The notes under the pieces were generated by a model. That model did no database searches. It was given only the letters and a program-made list of their open reading frames with translations, and had not been told where the DNA came from. A program made the position numbers and the translations under genes. DNA of 64,000 nucleotides from positions 2,294,001 through 2,358,000 of the forward strand of contig NZ_CP096019.1 in NCBI RefSeq assembly GCF_023115355.1, read 5' to 3'. This document shows positions 41,826 to 61,499 of this stretch, piece by piece. This stretch comes from Halocatena salina (GTDB lineage: Archaea > Halobacteriota > Halobacteria > Halobacteriales > Haloarculaceae). Every line of letters begins with the position of its first letter. Positions within the stretch are counted from its first letter, which is position 1.

Positions 41826-43385
41826 TCACTCCTCGTGGAGATGTTCGGCGACAGTCGCAGTGAGCGCTCCCGAGCGGACCAACTGTTCGATCGTCTCGAT
41901 TTCCCCTGAGAGCGGACGGTCGTTAGTGAGTGGATCCACTCGCTCCCGGACGTGGTCGTACGCCCGTTGTGTGCCGTCACCGGGTGAGAGATCCTCGACG
42001 AATTCGAGTGCTTGGGTGCCACACAGCAACTCCACTGCGACTACGCGAGCCGTGTTTTCGAGTACACGACGGGCGTTGAGCGCGGCCTGTGCGCTCATGC
42101 TCACGTGATCCTCTTGACCGCCGCTGACGGGCGTGTTGTCGGTCGAGGCCGCGCCCAACGACCGGTTCTCGTTCAACAGAGCGGCGGCGGTGTACTGGGC
42201 GATCATACAGCCCGACTGCAGTCCGCTGTTCTCGGTAAGAAACGGAGGTAGATACTCAGCTTGGATGTTCGGATTGAGAATCCGATCGACGCGGCGTTCA
42301 CAGATGGCAGCGAGATCCGTCAGCGCGGTCCGGACGTAATCCAGACGCAAAGCGAGGGGCTCGCCGTGGAAATTGCCCCCCGAGATGACGCCAACCGACT
42401 CGGTGCCACTGGCCCGGTCGTCGGTGTCGGCGGCCGAGAAGATCAGCGGATTGTCCGTCGCGCTGTTGAGTTCCACTTCCACCGCGTCTCGGAGATGATC
42501 GATGGCGTCACGGACCGCGCCGTGGACCTGGGGCAGACACCGGATGGAGTAGGCGTCTTGCACACGGTCACAGTTGCGGTGGGACTCGACGATCTCCGAA
42601 CCGGCGGTGAGGGCACGGACGTTCGCCGCGCTGACCGACTGGCCAGCATGGGGGCGCACGTTCTGGATCGCGGGATCACACGACGCCGTCGTCCCCATTG
42701 TCACCTCCGTCGTGAGTGCACCAGCAACGTCAGCGCTGTCGATCGTCCGTTCGGCATCCACGACGGCTAGTGCCCCAAGACCGACGGTGAGCTGTGTCCC
42801 GTTGATGAGCGCCAACCCCTCCTTGGCGCGGAGCGACAGTGGTTCGAGATCGACTTCTGCCAGTGCTCGTGTTCCGGAGAGACGATCCCCATCAACGACG
42901 GCGTGACCCTCACCGATGAGCACGAGCGCCATGTGTGCGAGCGGGGCGAGATCACCGCTCGCGCCGAGACTACCGCGGGATTTGACGACCGGATGGATCT
43001 CCTCGTTCAACAGCGTCACGAGATACGCAATGACGCGCTCGCGGACACCGGAATAGCCTTTCACCAGCGCGTTGAGCCGTGTCACCATCAGCGCACGGAT
43101 CTCCTCTCGTGTCAGCTCCCGGCCGCTTCCGGAAGCGTGGCTCCGAAGCAAGTTCATCTGGAGGTGGGAAAGGTCCTCTGCGGGGATCCGTTCGGTGACA
43201 AGCTGTCCGAACCCCGTGTTCAACCCGTACACCGGCTCTTCTTCCGTGACGACGGTCTCGACGCGGGCGCGCGACGTGCGAACTGCCTCCCACGCATCCT
43301 CAGCGACGGCCACCGGTTCGTCGTCGCGGGCAACGGACACGACATCCTCAGGTGTTAGTGAATTACCATCTAGTTCAATGACCAT
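41826..43385 (-). CDS. hutH: Histidine ammonia-lyase
   Basis: First step of histidine degradation: L-histidine to urocanate plus ammonia. The 519 residues include the MIO-forming Ala-Ser-Gly in GSLGASGDLAPLAHMALVLIG, the substrate region YGLNTGFGQLVTERIP and a C-terminal SGGQEDHVSMSAQAAL. It is the last gene of the hutU-G-I-H operon on the minus strand; its start overlaps the end of hutI by 11 bp. Confidence 0.97.
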   Translation of the reverse strand: MVIELDGNSLTPEDVVSVARDDEPVAVAEDAWEAVRTSRARVETVVTEEEPVYGLNTGFGQLVTERIPAEDLSHLQMNLLRSHASGSGRELTREEIRALMVTRLNALVKGYSGVRERVIAYLVTLLNEEIHPVVKSRGSLGASGDLAPLAHMALVLIGEGHAVVDGDRLSGTRALAEVDLEPLSLRAKEGLALINGTQLTVGLGALAVVDAERTIDSADVAGALTTEVTMGTTASCDPAIQNVRPHAGQSVSAANVRALTAGSEIVESHRNCDRVQDAYSIRCLPQVHGAVRDAIDHLRDAVEVELNSATDNPLIFSAADTDDRASGTESVGVISGGNFHGEPLALRLDYVRTALTDLAAICERRVDRILNPNIQAEYLPPFLTENSGLQSGCMIAQYTAAALLNENRSLGAASTDNTPVSGGQEDHVSMSAQAALNARRVLENTARVVAVELLCGTQALEFVEDLSPGDGTQRAYDHVRERVDPLTNDRPLSGEIETIEQLVRSGALTATVAEHLHEE

Positions 43386-44598
43386 CGATCACCACCTCCC
43401 CAGCTTTCAGTACGGTTTCGACGAGGTTGATACCGAACGTGTAGGGAATATGAACGTGGCTCGGAGCGTCGATCAGACAGAGATCGGCCGGTGCACTCGG
43501 ACCGAGCGTCCCCAGACCGCTGTCAGCCCGGTCGAGCGCGCGTGCACCACCGTGTGTGGCAGCCCCGAGCGCCTCAGCTGGCGTCATCTCCATGCCGAGA
43601 CAGCCGAGTGCCACGGCAAACCCCATGCTCGGTGAATGACAGTTGGGATTGAAATCCGAAGCGAGCGCGACGGACGCGCCCCGATCTATAAACGCGTGTG
43701 CATCAGCGTACTCGGCACCGAGTGAAAACGCGGTTCCCGGCAGTAAAACGGGTGTCACCCCCGACGCTTCGAGCGCGTCGATGTCCGCTTGCTCGGCGTG
43801 TAGGAGATGGTCCGCACTCGTCGCACTGAGTTCGGCGGCCAGCTGTGCACCGCCCAGTCGAACGAACTCTTCGGCGTGAACTTTCGGCGTGAGTCCGTGG
43901 TCCATCCCAGCGGTGAGCACCCGACGCGACTGTTCGACGTCGAACACGTCCGCTTCACAGAACACGTCGCAGAATTCGGCAATGCCCTGACGCTCGATAG
44001 CTGGCAGCTGTTCGGTGATGATCGATTCGACGTAGTCGTCTGCGGTCCAGCTCTCGGGCACTGCGTGGGCACCCATGTACGTCGGTACTACGTCGATCGG
44101 ATGGGTATCGTCGGCACGCTCGATCACCGAGAGCATCCGGAGTTCCGTCTCCGAATCCAATCCGTAGCCGGATTTTATCTCCACCGTGGTGGTGCCATGG
44201 GTGAGCATTACGTCGAGATACCCTAACAGTCGATCGAGCAGTTCCTCTTCGCTCGCGTTTCTGGTCGCCCGGACCGTTCTGAGGATGCCTCCGCCCTCTT
44301 CAAGGATCTCCTGATAGGACGCACCGCGGAGCTTCGCTTCGAACTCATCCGAGCGATCGCCAGCGAACAGCGCGTGGGTGTGTGAATCCACGAAGCCCGG
44401 AATCACCGTTTGCCCGCTCGCGTCGATGGCTCGCACGGCGTTTTCCGGCGGATACGCCCGCGTTATTTCCTCGGTCGGTCCAACCGCGACGATCGTCCCG
44501 TCTTCCATTGCGATCGCACCGTCTTCTACCCGGTCGAGACCGTTCTCTCCCGGTCCGATGACGATTTCGCTCGCCTCGTGAATGATGGTTTGTGTCAT
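43375..44598 (-). CDS. hutI: Imidazolonepropionase
   Basis: Third step of histidine degradation: hydrolyses 4-imidazolone-5-propionate to N-formimino-glutamate. Amidohydrolase fold, 407 residues, with the metal-binding VIPGFVDSHTHALFAGDRSDEF, later HAEEF and HLLHAEQAD, and VALASDFNPNCHSPSMGFAVALGC. The ATG at 44598 overlaps the hutG stop (ATGA), which decides the start. Downstream it overlaps hutH by 11 bp. Confidence 0.96.
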   Translation of the reverse strand: MTQTIIHEASEIVIGPGENGLDRVEDGAIAMEDGTIVAVGPTEEITRAYPPENAVRAIDASGQTVIPGFVDSHTHALFAGDRSDEFEAKLRGASYQEILEEGGGILRTVRATRNASEEELLDRLLGYLDVMLTHGTTTVEIKSGYGLDSETELRMLSVIERADDTHPIDVVPTYMGAHAVPESWTADDYVESIITEQLPAIERQGIAEFCDVFCEADVFDVEQSRRVLTAGMDHGLTPKVHAEEFVRLGGAQLAAELSATSADHLLHAEQADIDALEASGVTPVLLPGTAFSLGAEYADAHAFIDRGASVALASDFNPNCHSPSMGFAVALGCLGMEMTPAEALGAATHGGARALDRADSGLGTLGPSAPADLCLIDAPSHVHIPYTFGINLVETVLKAGEVVIDGH

Positions 44599-45524
44599 GT
44601 CGTGTCCTCCGTGGTCCATGCGCTCAAAACGTGAGCGATCGCGCGCGCGCCAGCAACAGCCGTTCGATCGCCCCGATCGAGCGGCGGCGCGCACTCGACG
44701 ACTTCGAATCCCGCGACGCGGTCGTCGTTTGCGATCGTTCCGAGCAGCCGGTACAGTTCGCGGGTCGTGAGTCCACCGGGTGTTGGCGCGCTCACCCCCG
44801 GAGCGGCCGTGACATCTAACACGTCGAGATCGAGGCTGACGTACAGTTGCTCTACGTCAGCCACCGCATCGATGGCAGTTCGTGCGGCCGCCCGTAGGTC
44901 CTGACCGACCTCCTCGGCGGTCACGACGGTGCCTCGTCCGTCGAGATATTCGGCGTAGGTGGTGGTGTTCTCGAAGTGACGCGCACCCACAACAGCAAAC
45001 GCGTCGAGTCCGTCGTCGAACAGCTGACGGTACGGCGTGCCACTCGACGGTGCGCCGGAACGACAGTCGAAATGGGCGTCGAAACTCACGATCCCGAGCG
45101 ATCCAGACGCCAGTAGCGGGCGCGCGTTGGGATACGTGAGCGAGTTATCGCCACCGAGAAACACCGGGCGCGCGTCGAGCGCGTGAACGTCTTCCGTGAT
45201 CGTCGCGACGGTTTGCTGTCTGGCCGGTACGTCCGCCGACTCGGAGAACCGAACGTCTCCGAGATCACCGACCGGACCGACGGTCCCACGGGTGAGATGA
45301 TGGGTTTTCGTTCCGTTCAGTGCCGAACGGAGGTGAGAGGGACCTTCTTGGGCACCCTGTCGGCCGATGACGGCCCGGTCCGTCGGTTCACCGAGTACCA
45401 CAGCCTCGTAAGTGGCTGCCTCGGTCAGCGTCGTCGCTTCGGTAACGTCTCCGAACTGTTCGTCGTTCGGATCCGTCGAAGGACCGTGCCAGTCGAACTG
45501 GGTAGTAAGATCAGTCCCTGTCAT
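44595..45524 (-). CDS. hutG: Formimidoylglutamase (arginase family)
   Basis: Fourth step of histidine degradation, splitting N-formimino-L-glutamate into glutamate and formamide. Ureohydrolase fold, 309 residues, with the Mn-binding motifs DAHFDCR and [22 protein letters not shown]. The first motif is GGDNSLTYP, i.e. Asn where arginases have the metal-ligand His (GGDHS). It overlaps hutU and hutI by four bases on each side. Confidence 0.95.
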
Positions 45525-47287
45525 CGCTCAGTCTCCATTGGGATGTGAACGTCCGATCGAGTCGCTTCCTCAACCGCCGTTTCATAGCCCGCGTCGGCGT
45601 GTCTGATGACCCCCATACCGGGATCGGTCGTGAACACGCGTCGGGCGGTTTCTGCCGCGCGGTCGGTGCCGTCAAGTACCACGTGATTGTTGGCGTGGAC
45701 GGCGTTTCCGATGCCAACGCCCCCACCGTCGTGAACGCTCACGATGTCCGCACCCGCAGCGCAGTTACACAGCGCGTTCAGTATCGGCCAGTCGGCGACC
45801 GCATCGCTGCCATCACGCATGGCTTCGGTTTCGCGGTTCGGGCTGGCAACGCTGCCCGCATCCAGATGATCCCGGGTCACGACGATCGGTGCCTCGATCT
45901 CGCCGTCGGCCACGAGTTCGTTGATCCGCAGTGCGAACCGCGCGCGTTCGGTGCGTCCGTCCTCATCCGTCTGGTAGCCGAGCCAACACACCCGACTCGG
46001 CAGTCCTTGGAACTCGACCTGATCGGCTGCGAGATCGATCCACCGGTGAAGGTGTTCTTTGTCCGGGAACAGATCGAGCACCGCCTCATCCGTTCTGTGG
46101 ATATCTTCGGGATCTCCCGACAGCGCTATCCACCGGAATGGTCCTTTTCCCTGACAGAACAGCGGACGGATGTAGGCTGGAACGAACCCGGGAAAATCGA
46201 ACGGTGTCGGTGGCGTCTCTGTTTCAGTGGCCCATTCGAATGCTCCGTCTTGCCATCGGTGTTCGTCGACCTGTCCACGGATGTTGTTGCCGTACTCGAA
46301 GGCGATGGCACCCTCCGACTGGAGTCTGAGGATGGCAGTGACGTGTCGTTCCATCGTGTCGAGCGCCGCCTCGACGTACGCCTCGGGGGTTTCCGATCGG
46401 AGTGTATCGGCCTCCTCGACGGTGTATCCACTGGGGTAGTAGCCGTTCAATTCGTCGTGAGCACTCGTTTGATCAGTGACGACATCGGGAACGAATCCCC
46501 GATCGTCCATCGCTTCGAGCATGTCCGCGGCGTTCATGTGGACACCGACGCTGTACGGTTCGTCCGCATCGGCGGCGCGTCGTGCCCGTTCGATCGCGGT
46601 GTCGAGATCATCGGTTTTCTCCATGCAGTAGCCGGTGTCGATCCGTCGATCGATACGGTTTTCATCGACTTCGGCTGCGATGCAGACCCCGTTGTTCATG
46701 GTCACGGCAAGCGGCTGTGCGCCACCCATCCCGCCGAGTCCACCTGTCGCTACGATTCGTCCCCGGAGATCGCCGTCGTACTGCTGACGGGCCAACTCCG
46801 CGAGCGTCTCGTAGGTGCCTTGGATGATCCCTTGGGTTCCGATGTACGCCCACGATCCGGCCGTCATCTGCCCGTACATGATCAATCCATCGGCCTCTAG
46901 CTCGTGGAACTGCTCCCACGTGTCCCATTTTCCTACGAGATTCGAGTTGGCGATCAACACGCGGGGGGCTCGTTCGTGCGTTCGAAACCGTCCGACGGGT
47001 TTGCCTGATTGGACCAACAGCGTCTCCGAATCGCCGAGTTCCCGGAGTTCGTCTACGAGCGCATCGTAGGCGTCCCAGCTCCGAGCAGCCCGCCCGGTCC
47101 CGCCGTACACCACGAGATCCTCCGGTCGCTCTGCGACTGCCGGGTCGAGATTGTTGTTCAACAACCGCAACGCAGCCTCCTGTCGCCATCCGTTACATTC
47201 GATCTCCGTTCCTGTCGGTGCGCCCCGGTACTCTTGCCACTGTTCGCTTGGCTCTCCGATCGAACCATCGGTCGGGTCGTCTCCCAT
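45521..47287 (-). CDS. hutU: Urocanate hydratase
   Basis: Second step of histidine degradation, converting urocanate to imidazolonepropionate with tightly bound NAD+. The 588-residue protein shows [62 protein letters not shown] (NAD-binding), GYYPSGYT and a C-terminal [34 protein letters not shown] with the family's conserved segments. It is the first gene of the hut operon, facing the HTH regulator across the palindromic promoter. Confidence 0.97.
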
Positions 47288-48905: not shown

Positions 48906-49208
48906 TCACACCATCCGATACACTTCCTCCATCCACGGGTCGGACTCCTCGATGAGGATTGACGCCATCACCTCGTCCCAATCGGCCTGTGCTTTGCTCT
49001 CTGCCATGACCGTCCGAATCGCCTCGGGATCCTCGACTTCCAGGTAGCCGAACACGTGCCCTTCCTTCTCGAAGACGCTGTACGTTTCCACCCCGGCCGC
49101 CGAGTCGAGATACGCCGATTCGAGTTCGGTCGGCACGTCCTCGTGTTCGGTTCGATACGCCGCTCGCTGCCCCTCTTCGATGCGGTAGTGAAACGCGATT
49201 CGCTCCAT
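48906..49208 (-). CDS. rhaM: L-rhamnose mutarotase-like protein
   Basis: A 100-residue RhaM/YiiL-family protein, interconverting the alpha and beta anomers of L-rhamnose (or L-fucose). Typical text: MERIAFHYRIEEGQRAAYRTEHEDVPTELESAYLDSAAGVETYSVFEKEGHVFGYLEVED, with the conserved Tyr/His positions of the family and the C-terminal DPWMEEVYRMV. It is divergent from the lactonase gene 92 bp away, supporting a role in the same deoxy-sugar pathway. Confidence 0.9.
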   Translation of the reverse strand: MERIAFHYRIEEGQRAAYRTEHEDVPTELESAYLDSAAGVETYSVFEKEGHVFGYLEVEDPEAIRTVMAESKAQADWDEVMASILIEESDPWMEEVYRMV

Positions 49209-49300: not shown

Positions 49301-50170
49301 ATGTTCGACACACATACACATGCATGGGGTCCGGCGAGTGCGGAGCATCCATGGGTGAACGGCCCGCTCTTGGATCGCGTCGATAGCTTCGCTGTCCACA
49401 CCGTCTACACCGCTGATCGGCTTTTGGCTGACATGGATCGAACCGGCGTCGAGCACGCCGTCGTCGTCGGCTATCCCATCTGTGAGTGGGTGGACAACTG
49501 GTACACGATACAGGCCACGACGGAACACGACCGGCTGTACGGCGTCGTGATGCTCGATCCGTTCGCCGCCGGCGCCGCCGACCGTCTTCGTCGGTGTATG
49601 GCAGTCGACGGCGTTCTTGGGTTCCGACTCGGCGGGGCCTGTCCGTACGATCGGATGTGGGAGACGTTCGATCCGAGCGTAACGTGGCTCAGAGACGCGA
49701 TCGAGGAGACGGCATTTTGGGAGGCAGCCCTCGAGACGGACGCGATCGTACAGATACTCTGTGACCACCGCCAGTTGGATCAGGCCATAGCACTCGTCGA
49801 GTCGTATCCCGAACTCACGTATCTGTTCGATCACTTCGCACACGCGGGTCCGAAGACACCCCTTGAAGACGGAACGTTCGCCCGATTCGCCGAACTGGCG
49901 GCGTACGACAACGTGGCAGTGAAGGTTTCTGAGATCCCGCACCTCTCGGAGACGACGTTTCCGTACGAGGATATGCACGATCACGTGCGATGGCTCCTTG
50001 AGACGTTCGGCCGCGAGCGCGTCGTCTGGGGATCCGACTATCCCAACGTCAGCGACGTCGCAAGCTACGACCAATCGCACGAGTGGCTTCGATCGGTCGA
50101 AACCCTCTCGCCGACGGATCGGAAATGGATGACCGAAACCGCCTTTCGTCGGCTCGTCGATCTGAACTGA
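49301..50170 (+). CDS. Amidohydrolase-family sugar lactonase (rhamnono-/fucono-lactonase-like)
   Basis: A 289-residue TIM-barrel amidohydrolase_2 protein, probably hydrolysing the sugar 1,4- or 1,5-lactone. Starts MFDTHTHAWGP (metal HxH), with DHFAHAGPKTP mid-barrel and the late Asp in VVWGSDYPNVSDV. This is the lactonase type found next to enolase-superfamily dehydratases in rhamnose and fucose clusters. It is first in a plus-strand operon with the dehydratase (90 bp) and LLM oxidoreductase. Confidence 0.85.
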   Translation: MFDTHTHAWGPASAEHPWVNGPLLDRVDSFAVHTVYTADRLLADMDRTGVEHAVVVGYPICEWVDNWYTIQATTEHDRLYGVVMLDPFAAGAADRLRRCMAVDGVLGFRLGGACPYDRMWETFDPSVTWLRDAIEETAFWEAALETDAIVQILCDHRQLDQAIALVESYPELTYLFDHFAHAGPKTPLEDGTFARFAELAAYDNVAVKVSEIPHLSETTFPYEDMHDHVRWLLETFGRERVVWGSDYPNVSDVASYDQSHEWLRSVETLSPTDRKWMTETAFRRLVDLN

Positions 50171-50260: not shown

Positions 50261-51466
50261 ATGGAAATCACAGATGTCTCCGCGACAGCCGTCAGTACAG
50301 AATCGTGGGGTGAGTTCGTCGAATTCCCACTCGTTACGGTAATGAGTGGCTATGAGGAGTACAACAACGCCGAAGGCGACAATCCACAGGCCCGCCGGAA
50401 GTGGATGGGTCCGGTCGGCGACGTCGTCGTCGAGGTGGAAACCGATGCAGGCATCACCGGCGTCGGTCACGGCAACTGGGCGACCGGTGCCATCGCCACG
50501 ATCGTCGAGGAAACGCTATCGAAACTCGTCGTCGGGGAAGATCCAAACGAACGAGAAAAGCTCTGGGACGTGATGTATCGTGCGACGATCCCGTTCGGTC
50601 GGAAAGGTGCTGCCATCGAAGCGATCAGTGCCGTCGATCTCGCGCTGTGGGACATCGCTGGGAAAGCAGCTGACAAACCCGTCTACGAGTTGCTCGGTGG
50701 GCCCGTGACAGAAGAGATCCCTTGTTATGCGAGCAATCTCCACCCGGTGGATCTCGACACGCTCGAACGGGAGGCTGTCGACTACGTCGAACAGGGATTC
50801 GACGCGATGAAGATGCGCTTTCAGTACGGTCCCGAAGCCGGACGGCGCGGTATGGAGAAAAACGAGGAGATCGTCGCAACAGTCCGAGACGCCGTCGGTG
50901 ACGACATCAAACTCGCGGCCGACGCCTACATGGGATGGAACGTCAGATACGCCAAGAAGATGCTCAAGCGCCTCGAGAAATACGACTTGGCGTGGGTCGA
51001 GGAGCCGGTCATTCCCGACGACATCGACGGCTACGCGGAGGTCCGGGCGTCGACCGACATCCCGATATCGGGCGGTGAACACGAGTTCACCCGATGGGGC
51101 CACAAGGAACTTCTCGAACGCGATGCGGTCGATATCCTCCAACCGGACGTCCATCGATGTGGCGGACTGACTGAACTCCGTCGCATCGACGCCCTGGCCA
51201 GCGCCCACGACGTGCCGGTCATCCCACATTCCGGAACGAACCCTCACCTCCACTTCATCGCAGCGTCGAGCAACGCCCCGATGGCCGAGTATTTCCCCAT
51301 TCCAGAGTGGTACAAAGAACAGCAAGAGGAGAAGGACTCGACGTACGCCGACGCCATCTACCGGGATCCTCCCGCTGCGGAGGCTGGCGTGATCGAGTTG
51401 CCCGACGGTGTGGGGCTGAGCACCGCGCTTAACCACGAAGCGCTCGAACGGTTCGCCGTGGAATAA
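50261..51466 (+). CDS. Mandelate-racemase-family sugar-acid dehydratase (L-rhamnonate/L-fuconate type)
   Basis: Enolase-superfamily dehydratase of 401 residues making the 2-keto-3-deoxy acid. Metal ligands and catalytic parts are visible: KLAADAYMGWN (Asp), LAWVEEPVIPDD (Glu), ISGGEHEFTRWG (Glu) and the His base/acid region VPVIPHSGTNPHLHFIAASSNAPMAEYFP, the last closely resembling L-rhamnonate dehydratases. The next gene starts 2 bp after its stop. The choice of rhamnonate over fuconate is supported by rhaM but not certain. Confidence 0.88.
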   Translation: MEITDVSATAVSTESWGEFVEFPLVTVMSGYEEYNNAEGDNPQARRKWMGPVGDVVVEVETDAGITGVGHGNWATGAIATIVEETLSKLVVGEDPNEREKLWDVMYRATIPFGRKGAAIEAISAVDLALWDIAGKAADKPVYELLGGPVTEEIPCYASNLHPVDLDTLEREAVDYVEQGFDAMKMRFQYGPEAGRRGMEKNEEIVATVRDAVGDDIKLAADAYMGWNVRYAKKMLKRLEKYDLAWVEEPVIPDDIDGYAEVRASTDIPISGGEHEFTRWGHKELLERDAVDILQPDVHRCGGLTELRRIDALASAHDVPVIPHSGTNPHLHFIAASSNAPMAEYFPIPEWYKEQQEEKDSTYADAIYRDPPAAEAGVIELPDGVGLSTALNHEALERFAVE

Positions 51467-51468
51467 CC

Positions 51469-52494
51469 ATGTCCGACATCAGCTTCGAGTACAACGTGCC
51501 CGTGTTCGCCGGTGCGCCGGTCGATGGGACAGAACCGACCCACCGTGACACACCGGCGTATGAGTCACTCGACTGGGCAACGACGCGGGAGGGAATCGAG
51601 ACGGCAGAAACGCTGGGTTTCGACGCGGCGTGGGCTCCCGACCACCTCATGCTCGGTCGAAATCACGCCGAGTATGAGTGTTGGACGCTGTTATCGGCGA
51701 TGGCTGGCTTCACCACGGACATCAACATCGGTTCGCTCGTCCTCTGTAACGACTACCGCAACCCCGCGCTGGTCGGGAAGATGGCGGCAACGCTCGACGT
51801 CATCTCGGAGGGCCGACTCGAACTCGGACTCGGTGCTGGGTGGCACGAACGCGAGTACGATGCCTACGGCTGGGAGTACCGCGACGGTTTCGAGCGATTG
51901 TTGCGTCTTGACGAATCGATTCGGTTGATCAAGCAGCTGTGGGACGCCGGTAAGGAGGGGGCACGTTTCGACGGCGACCACTACTGTATCGAGGACGCCT
52001 ACTGTGCCCCGGGACCCGTACAGGATCCACATCCACCGATCCTCGTCGGTGGTCAGGGTGAAGACGTGACGCTCAAGCTCGTCGCCAAACACGCCGATAT
52101 CTGGAACACGGACGTGTTCAACGGCGATGTCGACACCCTCGAACGCAAGATCGACGTCATCGAACAACACTGTGAGACGGTCGATCGGGATCCCGATGAG
52201 ATCGTATACTCTTGGGACGGCCACATCCTCTGTACCCGTGATGAGGAGAAGCTGGATCGGCTGCTCGATCTGATGACGCCGATCCAGTTCGAAGAATCGT
52301 ACACCGACCAGCCCGACATCACGCGCGAAAACGCAGACGAGTATTTCATCGTCGGCACGCCCGAGGAGTGTGCAACGGCCATCGAACGGCGAATCAACGC
52401 TGGCGTGGAGAAGTTCATGGGGTGGTTCGTCGACGCTCCCGACACCAGCGGGATGGAACTGTTCGCGGATGAGGTCATTCCCGAGTTTCAATAG
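51469..52494 (+). CDS. LLM-class flavin/F420-dependent oxidoreductase in the sugar operon
   Basis: A 341-residue luciferase-like (LLM) TIM-barrel oxidoreductase resembling F420-dependent members: GFDAAWAPDHLMLGRNHAEYECWTLLSAMAGFTTDINIGSLVLCNDYRNPALVGKMAATLDVISEGRLELGLGAGWHEREYDAYG, then PPILVGGQGEDVTLKLVAKHADIWN. It starts 2 bp after the dehydratase stop, so it is almost surely cotranscribed. The pathway needs two dehydrogenase steps whose usual short-chain enzymes are missing here; this protein could perform one with F420 (CofH is in the same window). Confidence 0.85.
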   Translation: MSDISFEYNVPVFAGAPVDGTEPTHRDTPAYESLDWATTREGIETAETLGFDAAWAPDHLMLGRNHAEYECWTLLSAMAGFTTDINIGSLVLCNDYRNPALVGKMAATLDVISEGRLELGLGAGWHEREYDAYGWEYRDGFERLLRLDESIRLIKQLWDAGKEGARFDGDHYCIEDAYCAPGPVQDPHPPILVGGQGEDVTLKLVAKHADIWNTDVFNGDVDTLERKIDVIEQHCETVDRDPDEIVYSWDGHILCTRDEEKLDRLLDLMTPIQFEESYTDQPDITRENADEYFIVGTPEECATAIERRINAGVEKFMGWFVDAPDTSGMELFADEVIPEFQ

Positions 52495-52519: not shown

Positions 52520-54715
52520 TCATTCGGTCGGTGATCGATCAACGAGCAGTTCGATCGGGTGGGTCGGTCGGCGTTCGAGGAGCGAATCCAACTGTTCGAG
52601 ACAGGAGGTTCCGCTCGCGACGACCGTTCGCTCGCGGGTCTCTGGAGCGGTGAACTGATCGCGCAACTCGTCGCCGACGGCCATGCTCACGTCGAAGTAC
52701 TCCGATTTGTACCCGAAGCTACCCGCCATGCCACAGCATTCGACGTCGGAGGTCAGAACGTCGAAACCACACCGTTCGAGCACGGCGACGGTGTGGGCTT
52801 CGACGTCGAGAGTCCGTTGCTGACAGTGGCTGTGGTAGGCGACTTCTGTCCCGTCGCCGTCTCGTAACGGCGCGTCGTCGGCTCCGTTTTCCAGCAGGCC
52901 GAAGACGTATTCCATGATCTCGTAGCTGTTGGTCGCAAGTCGCTCGTGGGCTGCCGGATCGAGCAATCGCTCGTACTCCCGCTCAAACATTGCCAGATCG
53001 CTCGGTTCGATGACGACCACGTCGCGCCCATCGGCGATGTAAGGTGCGAGGGTATCGCTGATGCGTTCGGCGTGGCTGCGTGCTGTCGTGATCATGCCCT
53101 GTGACAGAGGCGCGCGTCCACTCGATGGCACTGACGGGACGGCCACGTCGACGCCCAGCGCTTCGAGGACGCGCACCGCTGTGGCTCCGCGCTCGATCTG
53201 GACGTGGTTCGTATAGAGGTCCGGATACAACACGGCTCGTCGCCGAGGGGTGTCGACCGTCGTTTCACGATCCTGAAACCGATCGATCAACGTCCGTCGG
53301 TGGAACGTTGGGAGGTCACGCCGGGGATCGATGCCGAGCAATCGGTGTAACAGTTGGCGCGAAACAGTCGTCTCGGCCAACCAATTCGAGACCGGTGCCA
53401 GTGTGGAGCCGAGCCGTGCGACCGTCTCGAAATTGCCGAAAAACCGCTTCTGGAGCGGCGGGCTCCCCGCTTCGTTATCGGGCGTGAGTCCGTCGACCAG
53501 AAAGTCGAAGTTCTCTTCGTGGCCCTGATTGATCCGGTCTCGCACCACGGTGTTGATCCACGGAATGTCGATGTTCACTGGACAAGCGTCGACACAGCGG
53601 CTACAGCCGGTACAGAGATCATTGAACTCCCCAGCGACGTCGAGTCCCTCGATACCGGCCTCCCAGCCGGTTGCGATCCCGCCGGAGTACGTCTCACCAC
53701 CGAACGCGTGTCCACCGACCTGCTGGAAGTTGGCACAGACGTTCGAACAGGCCGAACACCGAATGCAGTACAGCGTCTCTCGCAGGTCGTCATCCTCACG
53801 CATCGCCATCCGACCGTTGTCGATCAACACCACGTGAAACTCCCGGTCGTCGTCGATCTCCGACAACGGCGTCTCCTCGTCGGTGTCGTCGATCACCGGC
53901 GTCTCGACTGGCGGCGTCAACAACGACACGTAGGAGGTGATGTCTTGACCGGTTCCCGAACGACCGATCAACTCCACGAACGGCTGTAGATCCTCGACCG
54001 TCGGAACGATCTTCTCGACACCCGCGACCGCGATGTGGGTGTCCGTCCCAGCGACGGTTTTGCGCGCGTTCCCTTCACTCGTGACGAGCGCGATGGTTCC
54101 GGTGTCGGCAGCGATGAAGTTGGCTCCCGTCATACCCACGTCGGCCTCCTGAATCCACTCACCGAGCTTCTCTCGTGCAAAGACAGTGAGCTCTTCGGCC
54201 GTTTCGAGCGGTTCTGTGGGTGAAAACACCTCCTCGAACAGTTCGGCGATGGCGGCGCGGGATTTGTGGATGGCAGGAGCGACGATGTGTGACGGCGTCT
54301 CCTCGGCCACCTGCAGCACCCACTCGCCGAGATCCGTTTCGATGACGTCGTGTCCGTCGGCTTCGAGCGCCTCGTTGACGTTTAGCTCCTCCGATGTCAT
54401 CGACTTGCTCTTGACAACTGTCTTCTCGGAGCCATCGCCGACAACCGTTCGAACGTACCGATTCGCATCTGCGGCGTCGTCCGCGAGATACAGCGTTCCA
54501 CCGTTGTTCTCGACGGTCGAACGGAGCTGATCGATCAGTTCGGGCAGCCGATCGATGGCGTCCTCTTTTATCGTCCGGGCCTCGTCTTTCACCGTTTCGT
54601 ACTCGTCAAGATCGGCGACGGACTCGTATCGACCTTGATTGAATCCCTGTGTGTTCGTCCGGACGGCGTCGCCCTCCGTGGCCATGATCTCCCGGAGACG
54701 GTCTGTGTCCGACAC
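52520..54715 (-). CDS. LutB-LutA fusion lactate oxidation protein
   Basis: A 731-residue iron-sulfur protein of L-lactate oxidation. The N-terminal part is LUD/LutB-like (KSKSMTSEELNVNEALEADGHDVIETDLGEWVLQ and ADTGTIALVTSEGN). Next come two 4Fe-4S clusters (CIRCSACSNVCANF, CTGCSRCVDACPVN). The C-terminal part is a CCG-domain LutA-like region (AYHSHCQQRTLDVE ... SDVECCGMAGSFGYKSEYF). In bacteria LutA and LutB are separate. LutC precedes it by 3 bp, and the hydrolase that would release lactate precedes that. Confidence 0.9.
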   Translation of the reverse strand: MSDTDRLREIMATEGDAVRTNTQGFNQGRYESVADLDEYETVKDEARTIKEDAIDRLPELIDQLRSTVENNGGTLYLADDAADANRYVRTVVGDGSEKTVVKSKSMTSEELNVNEALEADGHDVIETDLGEWVLQVAEETPSHIVAPAIHKSRAAIAELFEEVFSPTEPLETAEELTVFAREKLGEWIQEADVGMTGANFIAADTGTIALVTSEGNARKTVAGTDTHIAVAGVEKIVPTVEDLQPFVELIGRSGTGQDITSYVSLLTPPVETPVIDDTDEETPLSEIDDDREFHVVLIDNGRMAMREDDDLRETLYCIRCSACSNVCANFQQVGGHAFGGETYSGGIATGWEAGIEGLDVAGEFNDLCTGCSRCVDACPVNIDIPWINTVVRDRINQGHEENFDFLVDGLTPDNEAGSPPLQKRFFGNFETVARLGSTLAPVSNWLAETTVSRQLLHRLLGIDPRRDLPTFHRRTLIDRFQDRETTVDTPRRRAVLYPDLYTNHVQIERGATAVRVLEALGVDVAVPSVPSSGRAPLSQGMITTARSHAERISDTLAPYIADGRDVVVIEPSDLAMFEREYERLLDPAAHERLATNSYEIMEYVFGLLENGADDAPLRDGDGTEVAYHSHCQQRTLDVEAHTVAVLERCGFDVLTSDVECCGMAGSFGYKSEYFDVSMAVGDELRDQFTAPETRERTVVASGTSCLEQLDSLLERRPTHPIELLVDRSPTE

Positions 54716-54718
54716 TGA

Positions 54719-55219
54719 TCAGCCCTCCACGACGACGACGCCGACGGTGCTCGGTCCGTGAGCGCCCGTCACCAGCGAACCCATGTCTGCCGTCGCGCTC
54801 GGTCCCGTAGCGACGATCGCGCTGCCGTACGCGTCCGGCATCTCTCGGTCGAATCGGTCGAAGGCGTGTTCCATGTCCGCTACGATGTCCTGCTCGTCGA
54901 CGATCGCAATGTGGTGATCCACGTACAAACTCACCAGTTCGCTTCCAACTGCCGTCGATGGAAGGACGATCGATCCGTAGTCAGCGATGGCGAACGCTGC
55001 GGGTGTCACACCCGTCTGTGCGGCGTGAAGTTCGGCTGGCGTCGGATCGACGGTGACGGCGTCCGGGATGGAAACGTCGTCGCGGTCAAGCGCAACCGCG
55101 ACGGTATCACCGACGAGCAACTCCGCGATCGCGTCCGTCACGCCCGCCGGTGGAACGCGCCTCGTTTCGACGCCGACGCTCTCCAGAGACTCCGCGAATA
55201 GCTGCTGTTCGGTCGACAT
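54719..55219 (-). CDS. lutC: LutC-type LUD-domain protein
   Basis: A 166-residue LUD-domain protein, partner of LutA/LutB in lactate oxidation. The text VTPAAFAIADYGSIVLPSTAVGSELVSLYVDHHIAIVDEQDIVADME and SAIVATGPSATADMGSLVTGAHGPSTVGVVVVEG carries the LutC signature (GPSxTADI...GxHGP). Three bases separate it from the downstream LutB-A gene; the FAH-family hydrolase lies 27 bp upstream, so all three form one operon. Confidence 0.92.
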   Translation of the reverse strand: MSTEQQLFAESLESVGVETRRVPPAGVTDAIAELLVGDTVAVALDRDDVSIPDAVTVDPTPAELHAAQTGVTPAAFAIADYGSIVLPSTAVGSELVSLYVDHHIAIVDEQDIVADMEHAFDRFDREMPDAYGSAIVATGPSATADMGSLVTGAHGPSTVGVVVVEG

Positions 55220-55246: not shown

Positions 55247-56101
55247 TTAGTTTTGGGACTGTTGGGCCACGACGGGGTTCGTGAGCGTTCCAATGCCGTC
55301 GATCTCGATGTCCACTACGTCACCGGGTTCGAGTAGCTCCGGTGGTTCGCGGAAGATCCCGACGCCACCGGGGGTCCCTGTCGAGATGACGTCCCCGGGT
55401 CGCAGCGTCATCGCGGCGCTGATGTATTCGATGAGTTCATCGACGTCGAAGATGAACTGCTCCGTGTTTGATTCTTGTCTTGTTTCGCCGTTGACGCGAC
55501 AGGAGATATCTACGGCGTTCGGCTCGAAAAACGCGTCTGGAACGAGCGTCGGTCCCATCGGGGCGAACGTGTCGTAGCTCTTCCCCCGCAGGAACTGCTC
55601 GTCTTCGAACTGCGCGTCGCGCGCGCTCACGTCGTTGACCGCAGTGTAGCCGGCGACGTACTCCCGAGCATTGGCAGCGTCGACGTCCTTGGCTGTTTTC
55701 CCAATGACGACGCCGAGTTCGACCTCGTAGTCGACCTCCTTGATCCCTGATGGGTGGACGATGGGATCACCGGGGTTCGTAACGGCGGTCGGAGCCTTTC
55801 CGAACAGCAGTGGTCGCTCGGGAACGTCCTCGTCCTGTTCGTCGGCGTGGTCGTGGTAGTTGAGTCCCACACAGACGATCTTGCCCGGACGGGCGATCGG
55901 AGCGAGTCTCGTGACGTTGTTGAGGGGGATTGCACGGTCGTTGGCTGCGTCGAGGCCCTCCGTGACGACACGATGAAACCCCGGGTTGCCGAATTGGGAA
56001 ATCGAAACGTCTTCACGGAGTCCTGTAAGTGGAACGACGGTGTCGTCCTGCTGGACGCCCCACTGAGGAGACCCGTCGACGACGTATCTCGTGAATCGCA
56101 T
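55247..56101 (-). CDS. FAH-family hydrolase, probable 2,4-diketo-3-deoxy-L-rhamnonate/fuconate hydrolase
   Basis: A 284-residue fumarylacetoacetate-hydrolase-fold enzyme. Metal site text: KEVDYEVELGVVIGKTAKDV (E..E pattern), GYTAVNDVSARDAQFEDEQFLRGKSYDTFAPMGPTLV (Asp) and LRPGDVISTGTPGGVGIFREPPELLEPGD. In a mutarotase-lactonase-dehydratase context, this family hydrolyses 2,4-diketo-3-deoxy-L-rhamnonate or -fuconate to pyruvate and L-lactate. Its downstream partners are lactate oxidation genes. The start at 56101 (MRFTRYVVDG) is preferred to an ATG seven codons earlier. Confidence 0.88.
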   Translation of the reverse strand: MRFTRYVVDGSPQWGVQQDDTVVPLTGLREDVSISQFGNPGFHRVVTEGLDAANDRAIPLNNVTRLAPIARPGKIVCVGLNYHDHADEQDEDVPERPLLFGKAPTAVTNPGDPIVHPSGIKEVDYEVELGVVIGKTAKDVDAANAREYVAGYTAVNDVSARDAQFEDEQFLRGKSYDTFAPMGPTLVPDAFFEPNAVDISCRVNGETRQESNTEQFIFDVDELIEYISAAMTLRPGDVISTGTPGGVGIFREPPELLEPGDVVDIEIDGIGTLTNPVVAQQSQN

Positions 56102-56175
56102 CGGGCTCCTGTACAAGGACATGAAAATTAACAGTTTCGCTGTCGGAATCCGGACGGAAGGTTGCTGGTGTACGA

Positions 56176-56937
56176 TTAAGAATAGGTGAGGTTGACTTCG
56201 ATGACGTTGGCGCTCCGCCGGACCAAGTTCGGCAGCTCCTCGGTGAACGTTTCGCCCATCATCCGACTCTTCGGACCGGAGACGCTGATAGCCGCGATGG
56301 CACGACCATCGCTGTCAGTGATCGGAGCCGCGACACACCGCATCCCTTCGACACGTTCCTCGTCGTCGAACGCGTAGCCCCGCTCTCGAACGTCCTCCAG
56401 CGTGTCGAACAGGCTGTCTCTGTCCGTGATCGTGTTCTCAGTGACCGCCACGAGACCCTGTCGGTCGAGAATGTCCTCTACTTCCTCTCTGGATCGATGG
56501 GCGAGGATCGTCTTTCCGAGTGCTGTCGTCTGCAATGGAACACGCATCCCGGCGTACGTGTCTAGTTGTACCGCGTCGGCCCCACGGTCTTTGTAGAGGA
56601 ACACACCCCAATCGTGCTCCTCGATCATGAGGTTCGCGTGTTCGTTCGTCTTCGAAGCGAGATCTTCGACTTGTGGCCGGGCGACGTTGTACACTTTCAT
56701 CCGGGTGCGTGACTTCTCACCGAGATGAAGAAACCGGGCACCCACGTGATACGTTCCGTCGTCGTTGAGAAGGTACTCCATCTCGGTGAGCGTCTGTAAG
56801 TGATCGTGTATCGTACTGGTCGGCATACCCAACTCACCGGCAAGCTCAGACACCCCGGCACCGTTCAGTTCGTGAAGCGTCTCGATGATCTCGAACGTGG
56901 TTTTCGTCGCCTGTACTGATGTATCATTCGTGGCCAT
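56176..56937 (-). CDS. IclR-family regulator of the sugar cluster
   Basis: A 253-residue IclR-type regulator. N-terminal winged helix (TTFEIIETLHELNGAGVSELAGELGMPTSTIHDHLQTLTEMEYLLNDDGTYHVGARFLHLG) is followed by an effector-binding domain (VNVARPQVEDLASKTNEHANLM ... GKTILAH ... GYAFDDEERVEGMRCVAAPI). Starts at 56952 or 56958 are possible, but a palindrome at 56972-56986 argues that DNA above 56970 is promoter. Head-to-tail with the hydrolase-lut operon, it probably controls the island. Confidence 0.9.
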   Translation of the reverse strand: MATNDTSVQATKTTFEIIETLHELNGAGVSELAGELGMPTSTIHDHLQTLTEMEYLLNDDGTYHVGARFLHLGEKSRTRMKVYNVARPQVEDLASKTNEHANLMIEEHDWGVFLYKDRGADAVQLDTYAGMRVPLQTTALGKTILAHRSREEVEDILDRQGLVAVTENTITDRDSLFDTLEDVRERGYAFDDEERVEGMRCVAAPITDSDGRAIAAISVSGPKSRMMGETFTEELPNLVRRSANVIEVNLTYS

Positions 56938-56971
56938 GAACGTCGTGTTCATAGTCATACATGATAATTGT

Positions 56972-56986
56972 TCCGGTGACACCGGA
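56972..56986. promoter_or_regulatory. TCCGGTnnnACCGGA palindrome, right copy
   Basis: TCCGGTGACACCGGA, symmetric around its central base, 35 bp upstream of the IclR start. It matches the copy at 48633-48647 in 12 of 15 positions, including both 6-bp arms. It is a candidate autoregulatory site of the IclR protein. Confidence 0.5.
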
Positions 56987-57250
56987 GGCGATCGATGAGA
57001 CACCCTATATCTGGGACATCACTGTGATATACATATACATATACATATTCTATGTCCTCTCCTGGGATATTACATCAACATTATTATAATAGGTCAAGTT
57101 GAATGGTAGTATGGCTGGTCGTTACGATAATGGTTGTTATCGCACGTACCCCGAATCTCCTATCATCTCATTTCTAACCATTCATATGATCTATATATTT
57201 GTAGTCATATTATCGCTGCTGTCGGTACGTCCAGTTGTTTTGACAGACCG
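56987..57250. other. AT-rich intergenic region
   Basis: About 260 bp without a gene. Contains an ATATAC-type microrepeat (57027-57048) and several TATA-like stretches, one probably the IclR promoter. ATCACTGTGAT at 57019-57029 is a short palindrome. No gene supported. Confidence 0.4.
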
Positions 57251-60134: not shown

Positions 60135-61499
60135 CTACTGGGAATGTTCGACGAGGGGTGTTCCGTCGGCACGCGGACCGAGCTGTGGACCAAACGGTGG
60201 AGCTGTCGGATTGATCCGCCGTCGTTCGGTGTAGTCGGTCGATCGTTCGACGGGCACGCGTCCGATGGAAGTGATCATCTCGACGTACTTTTGGAACGAG
60301 CGGGCCTCCCCATAGCCGCCGCCAGCGCGCTTTGTGATCTCTTCGGAGAGGATGGTTCCCATGAAGTCATCAGCACCACACGAGAGCATCTTCAGTCCCA
60401 GCTCATCGCCGTATTTGACCCACGAAGACTGAATGTGATCGATGTTGTCGAGAAACAGGCGAGCAACAGCGATCATCAGTTCGTCTTCCTCGGTGGTCGC
60501 TCCGGCGTCGATCATTCCCTCCTCGTACAGGGGGGTGTTGGGGTGGATGAACGAGAGGGGAACGAACTCCGTGATGACGCCGGTTCGGTCTTGAAGGTTC
60601 CTGACGCGTTCGAGGTGCATAATCCGGTGCATCTCGTTTTCGACGTGTCCGTACATGATGGTCGCCGTCGTCGACAGCCCCACATCGGCAGCGGCTTCCA
60701 TCGCGTCCATCCACTCGTCGGTACGCATCTTGCCGGGACAGATGACATCGCGTACTTCGTCGACGAGGATCTCCGCGGCTGTCCCCGGTACACTGTCAAG
60801 CCCGGCCGCTTTCAGCCGGCCGTACACCTCCTCGTAGTTCCACTCCGTTCCACGACGAGCGTGGTAGGCCTCTTCGGGTGTCATCGAGTGGAGGTGTACA
60901 TCGCCGACAGACATCGCTGCCATCTGTGCCGTGTACGTGCCCGGGTTCTTCTCATAGCGCTCAGGGGATTTGTAGTTGAGATCTCCGCGGTCGTTGCCCT
61001 CGAGTATTTCGCGGTGCTCTTCGTCCAGCGCGAACGCTGGGTGCAGCCCCGAGACGGAGGTGACTTCGTAGATCCCTGTATCGAGCGCGTCAGCGACGAT
61101 GGCGCGCGATTCTGCCGGTGTCTTGGTGAATCCGTCGTGTGCGGCGTCGTTGTCCCGCAGAAACTGCTTCGACCGATCCTTGAAATTGCAGAACAGACAG
61201 CCCGTGTTACAGGCCGTCGTGACGTTGTTGTTGAGATTGGCGACGAACGTGACCTCGTTGCCGACGATCTCCTCGCGCCGCCGATCGGCGATTTCGAGGA
61301 CCACCTCCTTCCGACGGGGATCGATCCCATCTTGCTCCGTTCCTGTCGTGAGAAGCTCGACGCCGTCGGCGACCGTGAGCCGATCGCCTGCACGGGCTTT
61401 CGCTACCGCGTTCTCGAAACTTTGATCGGTTTCCGGTCGATGGGTAAAGCCAAACCGATTCCGTGGAACGTTCGCCCGAATCGGTGAAACGCTCGTCAT
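60135..61499 (-). CDS. cofH: FO synthase subunit 2 (CofH)
   Basis: Radical SAM enzyme that, with CofG, makes 7,8-didemethyl-8-hydroxy-5-deazariboflavin, the chromophore of coenzyme F420. The 454 residues have the CX3CX2C cluster CNTGCLFCNFKD (about residue 97), and EVYGRLKAAGLDSVPGTAAEILVDEVRDVICPGKMRTDEW. CofG is not in the window. Its presence shows that F420 is probably made, relevant to the LLM oxidoreductase at 51469. Confidence 0.94.
   Translation of the reverse strand: MTSVSPIRANVPRNRFGFTHRPETDQSFENAVAKARAGDRLTVADGVELLTTGTEQDGIDPRRKEVVLEIADRRREEIVGNEVTFVANLNNNVTTACNTGCLFCNFKDRSKQFLRDNDAAHDGFTKTPAESRAIVADALDTGIYEVTSVSGLHPAFALDEEHREILEGNDRGDLNYKSPERYEKNPGTYTAQMAAMSVGDVHLHSMTPEEAYHARRGTEWNYEEVYGRLKAAGLDSVPGTAAEILVDEVRDVICPGKMRTDEWMDAMEAAADVGLSTTATIMYGHVENEMHRIMHLERVRNLQDRTGVITEFVPLSFIHPNTPLYEEGMIDAGATTEEDELMIAVARLFLDNIDHIQSSWVKYGDELGLKMLSCGADDFMGTILSEEITKRAGGGYGEARSFQKYVEMITSIGRVPVERSTDYTERRRINPTAPPFGPQLGPRADGTPLVEHSQ

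Follow-up and report, generated by a model that had tools for sequence, protein, structure and literature searches.

An LLM-class oxidoreductase gene is the obligate partner of rhcD, the L-rhamnonate dehydratase gene, in haloarchaea. The association, of which we are nearly certain, was seen at every haloarchaeal rhcD locus that we examined, and its best explanation is that the LLM belongs to the core enzymes of L-rhamnose breakdown in haloarchaea. As for its role, we propose, with a probability of about 45%, that it acts as an F420-dependent L-rhamnose 1-dehydrogenase, where cofactor, substrate and reaction are all predicted. The gene was studied in a stretch of 64,000 nucleotides from Halocatena salina (contig C1, 2294001-2358000), hereafter the window.

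The LLM gene and its rhamnose cluster

As listed in Table 1, the LLM gene is part of an L-rhamnose (rhc) cluster of the haloarchaeal kind: an rhcD-type dehydratase, a mutarotase, a lactonase, an FAH hydrolase and an IclR regulator are all present. The earlier note had described a deoxy-sugar operon here, and this description holds. Because most of the window proteins score below the NCBIfam equivalog cut-offs, the gene names rest also on RefSeq orthologues. In orthologous clusters, RefSeq names rhcC, rhcD, rhcE and rhcF in Haloarcula pelagica, rhcD in Halopiger xanaduensis, and rhcD and rhcF in Halocatena marina; one orthologue of the window lactonase carries the name rhcC, L-rhamnono-1,4-lactonase, in H. 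pelagica. The IclR neighbour is recurrent in rhc loci, and the ludB-type gene is convergent with the LLM gene.

Table 1. Features of the rhamnose cluster and its surroundings in the window.
Feature	Position	Strand	Evidence
L-rhamnose mutarotase (rhaM)	48906-49208	-	PF05336 54.5 bits, cut-off 23.4
Amidohydro_2 lactonase, RhcC-type	49301-50170	+	PF04909 113 bits
rhcD-like L-rhamnonate dehydratase, enolase superfamily	50261-51466	+	PRK15440 261 bits, best NCBIfam match, below cut-off 393
LLM-class oxidoreductase (P0001)	51469-52494	+	341 aa, ATG start; PF00296
ludB-type Fe-S L-lactate dehydrogenase subunit	52520-54715	-	LdhH 443 bits (NCBIfam), below cut-off 800; LUD domain
ludC-type LUD-domain protein	54719-55219	-	PF02589 58.8 bits
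rhcF-like 2,4-diketo-3-deoxy-L-rhamnonate hydrolase, FAH family	55247-56122	-	NF053535 213.9 bits, best match, below cut-off 500; PF01557 253 bits
IclR-family regulator, RhcR-like	56176-57003	-	IclR_C PF01614 148 bits
cofH, F420 (FO) biosynthesis, outside the operon	60135-61499	-	PRK07360 CofH 535 bits, cut-off 426 (NCBIfam)

The rhaM-type mutarotase, the L-rhamnonate dehydratase, the diketo hydrolase and the RefSeq rhc names favour L-rhamnose over L-fucose as the sugar. L-fucose as the main substrate is disfavoured by the same RefSeq names and by the Halopiger locus, where rhamnogalacturonan-lyase and GH78 genes lie nearby. Immediately ahead of the rhamnose genes, those at 41826-47287 (minus strand) resemble by eye a histidine-utilisation (hut) operon.

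The LLM open reading frame is a real gene. It starts 2 bp past the dehydratase stop, as had been noted, and its assignment to the LLM proteins is supported by a PF00296 score of 172.5 bits, where the cut-off is 27.9. The AlphaFold model (pLDDT 80.5) has the TIM-barrel LLM fold, and about 300 of its residues align to LLM structures with Z scores of 27-33. Comparison with the nearest relative, from Halocatena pleomorpha, over 341 codons gave a dN of 0.046 and a dS of 0.541 (dN/dS about 0.09), and the gene is under purifying selection. With the position of the reading frame, the PF00296 match, the neighbours and the absence of short-chain dehydrogenases (SDRs) from the window, the observation made in the earlier note stands.

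Association of the LLM with rhcD

LLM and rhcD orthologues were identified in the same 49 of 391 Halobacteria genomes, which are an even draw from a larger group, at limits of E≤1e-130 for LLM and E≤1e-150 for rhcD; none of the genomes held one alone. The two genes were adjacent and on one strand in all 49, which are related by descent and transfer and do not amount to 49 independent events. At the named haloarchaeal loci the LLM gene followed rhcD in every case (37/37), with a start that lies between -4 and +13 bp relative to the stop of rhcD, most commonly at 2 bp. Plasmid records gave the same picture: 19 of them contained an rhcD at 71% identity or higher, and it was these 19 that contained the LLM at 74% or higher. 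These 37 haloarchaeal loci belong to a set of 80 dehydratase loci, the other 43 being bacterial, and the two sets were examined separately. LLM was found at none of the 43 bacterial loci, several of which are on short contigs, and we therefore rejected the idea that bacterial L-rhamnonate dehydratases generally have this partner. In the LLM tree, from which rows with stops or shorter than 250 aa were dropped, the 38 rows from the window and the 37 loci were all placed on one side of a branch with support of 100/99.

The earlier note had thought of an undescribed variant. The arrangement is not peculiar to the window, however, as the LLM stands beside every haloarchaeal rhcD examined, including those of Haloferax and Haloarcula clusters that hold both an SDR and RhcE. 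A window-specific replacement for a lost dehydrogenase was rejected, since the LLM is present in all 49 rhcD genomes.

Several further features of the pair were observed. A decayed extra rhcD-LLM copy is found in one related genome at G040:C3:319800-339700 (L078), where rhcD is a short piece and the LLM contains stops, and in a second relative an extra LLM copy is split at G017:C2:265900-284400 (L046). Across the 49 genomes, the rhcD orthologues form two groups by identity to the window, one at about 73-78% and one at 80-96%, and the adjacent LLM has 77-92%, hinting that rhcD alone may have been exchanged within the pair. On pHTUR01 of Haloterrigena turkmenica (L081:18293-21029), a cluster for mycofactocin biosynthesis (mftA, B, C, E, F) begins at a distance of about 7 kb from rhcD and the LLM gene.

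Enzymes for each pathway step

The coverage of each step depends on the E-value limits chosen, which in addition to those for LLM and rhcD were 1e-90 for the lactonase, 1e-130 for RhcE (2-keto-3-deoxy-L-rhamnonate dehydrogenase) and 1e-60 for the SDR of the Haloferax cluster. With these limits, the RhcC-type lactonase was present in all 49 rhcD/LLM genomes and RhcE in 48, none being detected in G328. No RhcE-type zinc dehydrogenase was found in the window; the RhcE homologue of this genome is encoded on replicon C2 (G000:C2:428514-429536) and matches the protein of Haloarcula pelagica at 69% identity. The Haloferax-cluster SDR was detected in 19 of the 49 genomes, in none of the others among the 391, and gave no match in the genome of the window. 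The LLM was kept in all 19 SDR-positive genomes.

As had been stated before, the window contains no SDR: 27 PF00106 matches were obtained genome-wide (E≤1e-20), none of them inside. Local counts with nine SDR seeds (E≤1e-8) showed that 25 of the 30 SDR-negative rhcD-LLM loci are without any SDR in a 20-kb stretch (64 kb for the window, by the PF00106 matches). Some SDR was present within 20 kb at the other five (G062, G340, G231, G196 and G444), and a further stretch of G360 contained one. In Haloarcula japonica and H. mannanilytica (L112/L113; G014/G018), the transporter, mutarotase, lactonase, RhcE, rhcD, LLM, IclR, FAH and LudBC genes occur together, and no SDR was found in 20 kb near these clusters.

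Because RhcE is present in 48 of the 49 genomes, that of the window included, the keto-acid step does not need the LLM. The SDR is present in only 19, and therefore the first step is without a conserved NAD enzyme in 30 genomes, again including that of the window. Thus it is the first oxidation, from L-rhamnose to the lactone, that has no conserved enzyme, and the LLM, a conserved oxidoreductase, has no step assigned to it. The earlier note had suggested that the LLM may replace one of the usual NAD-dependent dehydrogenases; for the keto-acid dehydrogenase the RhcE counts and the homologue on C2 speak against this, while for the sugar 1-dehydrogenase the suggestion is our leading reading.

Two other regions of this genome were observed. 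Near the RhcE homologue (G000:C2:419000-458800; L188, L189) lie an ABC transporter, a further LLM of the L007 type and, by eye, likely glycoside hydrolases. A cluster at G000:C4:190000-209900 (L191), with an ABC transporter, an SDR, an enolase-family dehydratase, two zinc dehydrogenases and genes that by eye resemble a kinase of the rhamnulokinase type and a class II aldolase, is a possible second deoxy-sugar route.

Cofactor of the LLM

The LLM is probably F420-dependent. The four NCBIfam models that best match it are all of F420 families, and the best of them is TIGR03560 (F420_Rv1855c), at 224.2 bits, 7 under the cut-off of 231.4. Six orthologues scored 228.2, 235.3, 236.2, 222.8, 225.4 and 233.4 bits, so that three of the six pass. 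Among 72,556 plasmid records, the matches at E≤1e-30 were 25 haloarchaeal and 12 actinobacterial, with no other phylum. F420 is known in both haloarchaeal and actinobacterial lineages. The presence of cofH in the window, which had been pointed out earlier, was confirmed, and the F420 genes of the genome comprise CofH, CofD and NpdG (F420H2:NADP oxidoreductase). These genes and the taxonomic distribution of the matches bear on F420 binding indirectly.

Using VIA-align, the five best structures were F420-dependent Mer proteins (Z 31.5-32.7), followed by FMN-dependent SfnG (31.3) and F420-dependent Adf (30.9), whereas 3rao and SfnG lead in the Foldseek E-value order. Since F420 and FMN enzymes are within about 2 Z units of each other, the fold does not settle the cofactor, and it was set aside as a means of deciding between the two.

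Comparison with known enzymes and clusters

The comparison with FGD (F420-dependent glucose-6-phosphate dehydrogenase) that the earlier note had called for revealed the same fold (3b4y, Z 29.8; 5lxe, Z 29.6), but FGD was not the closest match. This was Mer, the F420-dependent methylene-tetrahydromethanopterin reductase (Z 32.7, rmsd 2.4 Å over 299 residues), a reductase of C1 metabolism, to which the LLM has 24% identity and a TIGR03555 score of 67.7 against a cut-off of 348.7. TIGR03560, of the Rv1855c type, is the best model for the LLM, and its family name gives no substrate. FGD and FSD (the sugar-6-phosphate dehydrogenase) are like the LLM in fold and in the proposed C1 oxidation chemistry. 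They differ from it in sequence (about 20% identity; TIGR03554 51.3 bits against a cut-off of 420), and the substrate of the LLM would be unphosphorylated.

We aligned the window protein with 34 of the 37 named orthologues, omitting the near-copies L107, L108 and L150, and with four distant LLMs. The catalytic residues of FGD, which we take to be His40, Trp44 and Glu109, correspond in the alignment with Rv0132c to His59, Gly63 and Trp125 of the LLM, and these three were found in 35 of 35 aligned rows. His59 was also invariant in the four distant LLMs. With only the His kept and the presumed Trp and Glu absent, the LLM cannot be classed as an FGD, and as a sugar dehydrogenase it would have a different catalytic apparatus. 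Residues that are invariant in the clade and different in the four distant LLMs include Arg64, Glu70, Asn94, Asp95, Arg97, Asn98, Asn213, Thr214, Asp215, Asp250 and Asp322. Such clade-specific polar residues would suit a hydroxyl-rich substrate, which is only suggestive.

The window shares the mutarotase, lactonase, rhcD, FAH hydrolase, IclR regulator and LudBC with the Haloferax volcanii rhc cluster, and differs from it in having no adjacent transporter, RhcE or SDR, RhcE being on another replicon. Seven other Haloferax records contained the rhc cluster whole or in part, with the LLM beside rhcD in all of them. The H. volcanii cluster and its diketo-hydrolase L-rhamnose pathway were reportedly described by Reinhardt, Johnsen and Schoenheit in 2019, who may have assigned the first step to the SDR. 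No paper linking an LLM or an F420 enzyme to L-rhamnose was found among open-licence PMC papers. In one of them, HVO_B0113 of H. volcanii is an open F420-oxidoreductase annotation with 27% identity to Rv0132c, too distant for an assignment (PMC8305020). Judging from this identity and from the LLM in Haloferax rhc loci, HVO_B0113 may be the LLM orthologue.

Discussion

Considering the complete clusters without an SDR and the coverage of RhcE and the lactonase, the simplest reading is that the LLM does the first oxidation. RhaM would set the anomer of L-rhamnose, and the LLM would pass the C1 hydride of L-rhamnopyranose on to F420, so that L-rhamnono-lactone and F420H2 are formed. The RhcC-type lactonase would open the lactone and RhcD would then dehydrate the acid. 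RhcE, encoded on another replicon here, would oxidise the RhcD product, RhcF would split the resulting compound into pyruvate and L-lactate, and LudBC would oxidise the L-lactate; F420H2 would be reoxidised by NpdG. Related chemistry is known from F420-dependent dehydrogenases of the LLM fold, which oxidise sugar 6-phosphates (PMC6279831).

Some of the observations tell against a role in the first step. Retention of the LLM in all 19 SDR-positive genomes is odd if LLM and SDR are interchangeable, an unlinked SDR among the 27 PF00106 matches could do the first oxidation, and the gene to which the LLM is linked is rhcD rather than that of the mutarotase or the lactonase. The missing FGD-type Trp and Glu, the TIGR03560 score below the cut-off and the closeness of FMN enzymes in fold also tell against an F420-dependent sugar dehydrogenase. 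The retention, the unlinked SDRs, the linkage to rhcD and the missing Trp and Glu count in favour of another reading, namely that the LLM is F420-dependent and acts on the RhcD product, on a side product or in an undescribed step that every rhc strain requires, with SDRs in the cluster or unlinked to it performing the first one. We regard this as rather unlikely, because the first step is the only step of the known diketo-hydrolase pathway left open, and we know of no such side reaction of L-rhamnonate dehydratase. Replacement or duplication of RhcE by the LLM, through F420-dependent C4 oxidation of 2-keto-3-deoxy-L-rhamnonate, would fit its place directly after the dehydratase that makes this substrate and the lack of RhcE in the window. 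The RhcE homologues of all rhcD/LLM genomes other than G328 make such a replacement very improbable.

The cofactor might instead be FMN, in which case the LLM would use FMNH2, as a monooxygenase or reductase, on a compound derived from the sugar or imported along with it. Among solved structures, 3rao, a putative LLM monooxygenase, is nearest in sequence, SfnG ranks high among the fold matches, and a GW motif at 124-125 resembles RutA in the alignment. We nevertheless consider FMN dependence improbable, given that the best curated models are of F420 families, that the plasmid-record matches are confined to haloarchaea and Actinobacteria, and that no FMN reductase partner was recognised among the cluster genes scanned. 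That the LLM plays no part in the use of rhamnose, being a mere passenger that is redundant or moonlights elsewhere, is hardly credible in view of its occurrence in the same genomes as rhcD across families, the near-constant spacing and the low dN/dS.

If the LLM is indeed an F420-dependent L-rhamnose 1-dehydrogenase, F420-dependent sugar oxidation would extend from bacterial sugar phosphates to archaeal free deoxy sugars. The LLM would then fill a step for which the usual SDR of the cluster is missing from 30 of the 49 rhc genomes, and F420 would gain a defined catabolic role in halophiles. If its role is in another step, an obligate enzyme is absent from the usual scheme of the L-rhamnose pathway. 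According to a 2021 review of open annotations, only one F420-dependent reaction has been reported in halophilic archaea and the importance of F420 there is enigmatic (PMC8305020). The invariable link between the LLM and one sugar dehydratase offers a concrete substrate for testing, in the genetically tractable Haloferax.

A sister clade of the LLM

The nearest rows outside the LLM clade, 19 in number, join it with support of 99/95 and have about 45% identity. At 23 loci of this sister clade (at least 40% identity), the neighbours included a rhaM-type mutarotase at 12, an SMP-30 lactonase at 10, a mannonate-dehydratase-like gene at 10 and an SDR at 11. Examples are L193:11358-12359 (Haloarcula pelagica), L198:18656-19657 and loci L039-L057, and two of the proteins carry the RefSeq label 'TIGR03560 family F420-dependent'. 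This second sugar cluster was also seen with an aldo/keto reductase and a sugar ABC transporter. The recurrence of mutarotase and lactonase, despite the different lactonase families, points to C1 oxidation as the shared step, although this argument is weakened by the SDR, which may be the sugar dehydrogenase there.

With two sister clades in two sugar clusters, we tentatively suggest that the first enzyme of L-rhamnose catabolism in haloarchaea may be an aldose 1-dehydrogenase of the LLM type that depends on F420 and is part of a wider haloarchaeal LLM family oxidising unphosphorylated sugars. Sister-clade members in G089, G090, G091, G092, G093 and G094 had no mutarotase or lactonase nearby and were each near a Gfo6-like gene, and the more distant members L195 and L196 were among peptidase and acyl-CoA genes. 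Considering these contexts, the wider LLM family is not tied to sugars. A third LLM type, with about 29% identity to the window protein, was present within about 10 kb of rhcD at 6 of the 37 named loci (L087:6185-7129, L088:20239-21180, L094:13001-13822, L096:1186-2127, L097:921-1862 and L118:6307-7251), where ABC transporter ATPase matches share the stretch with it.
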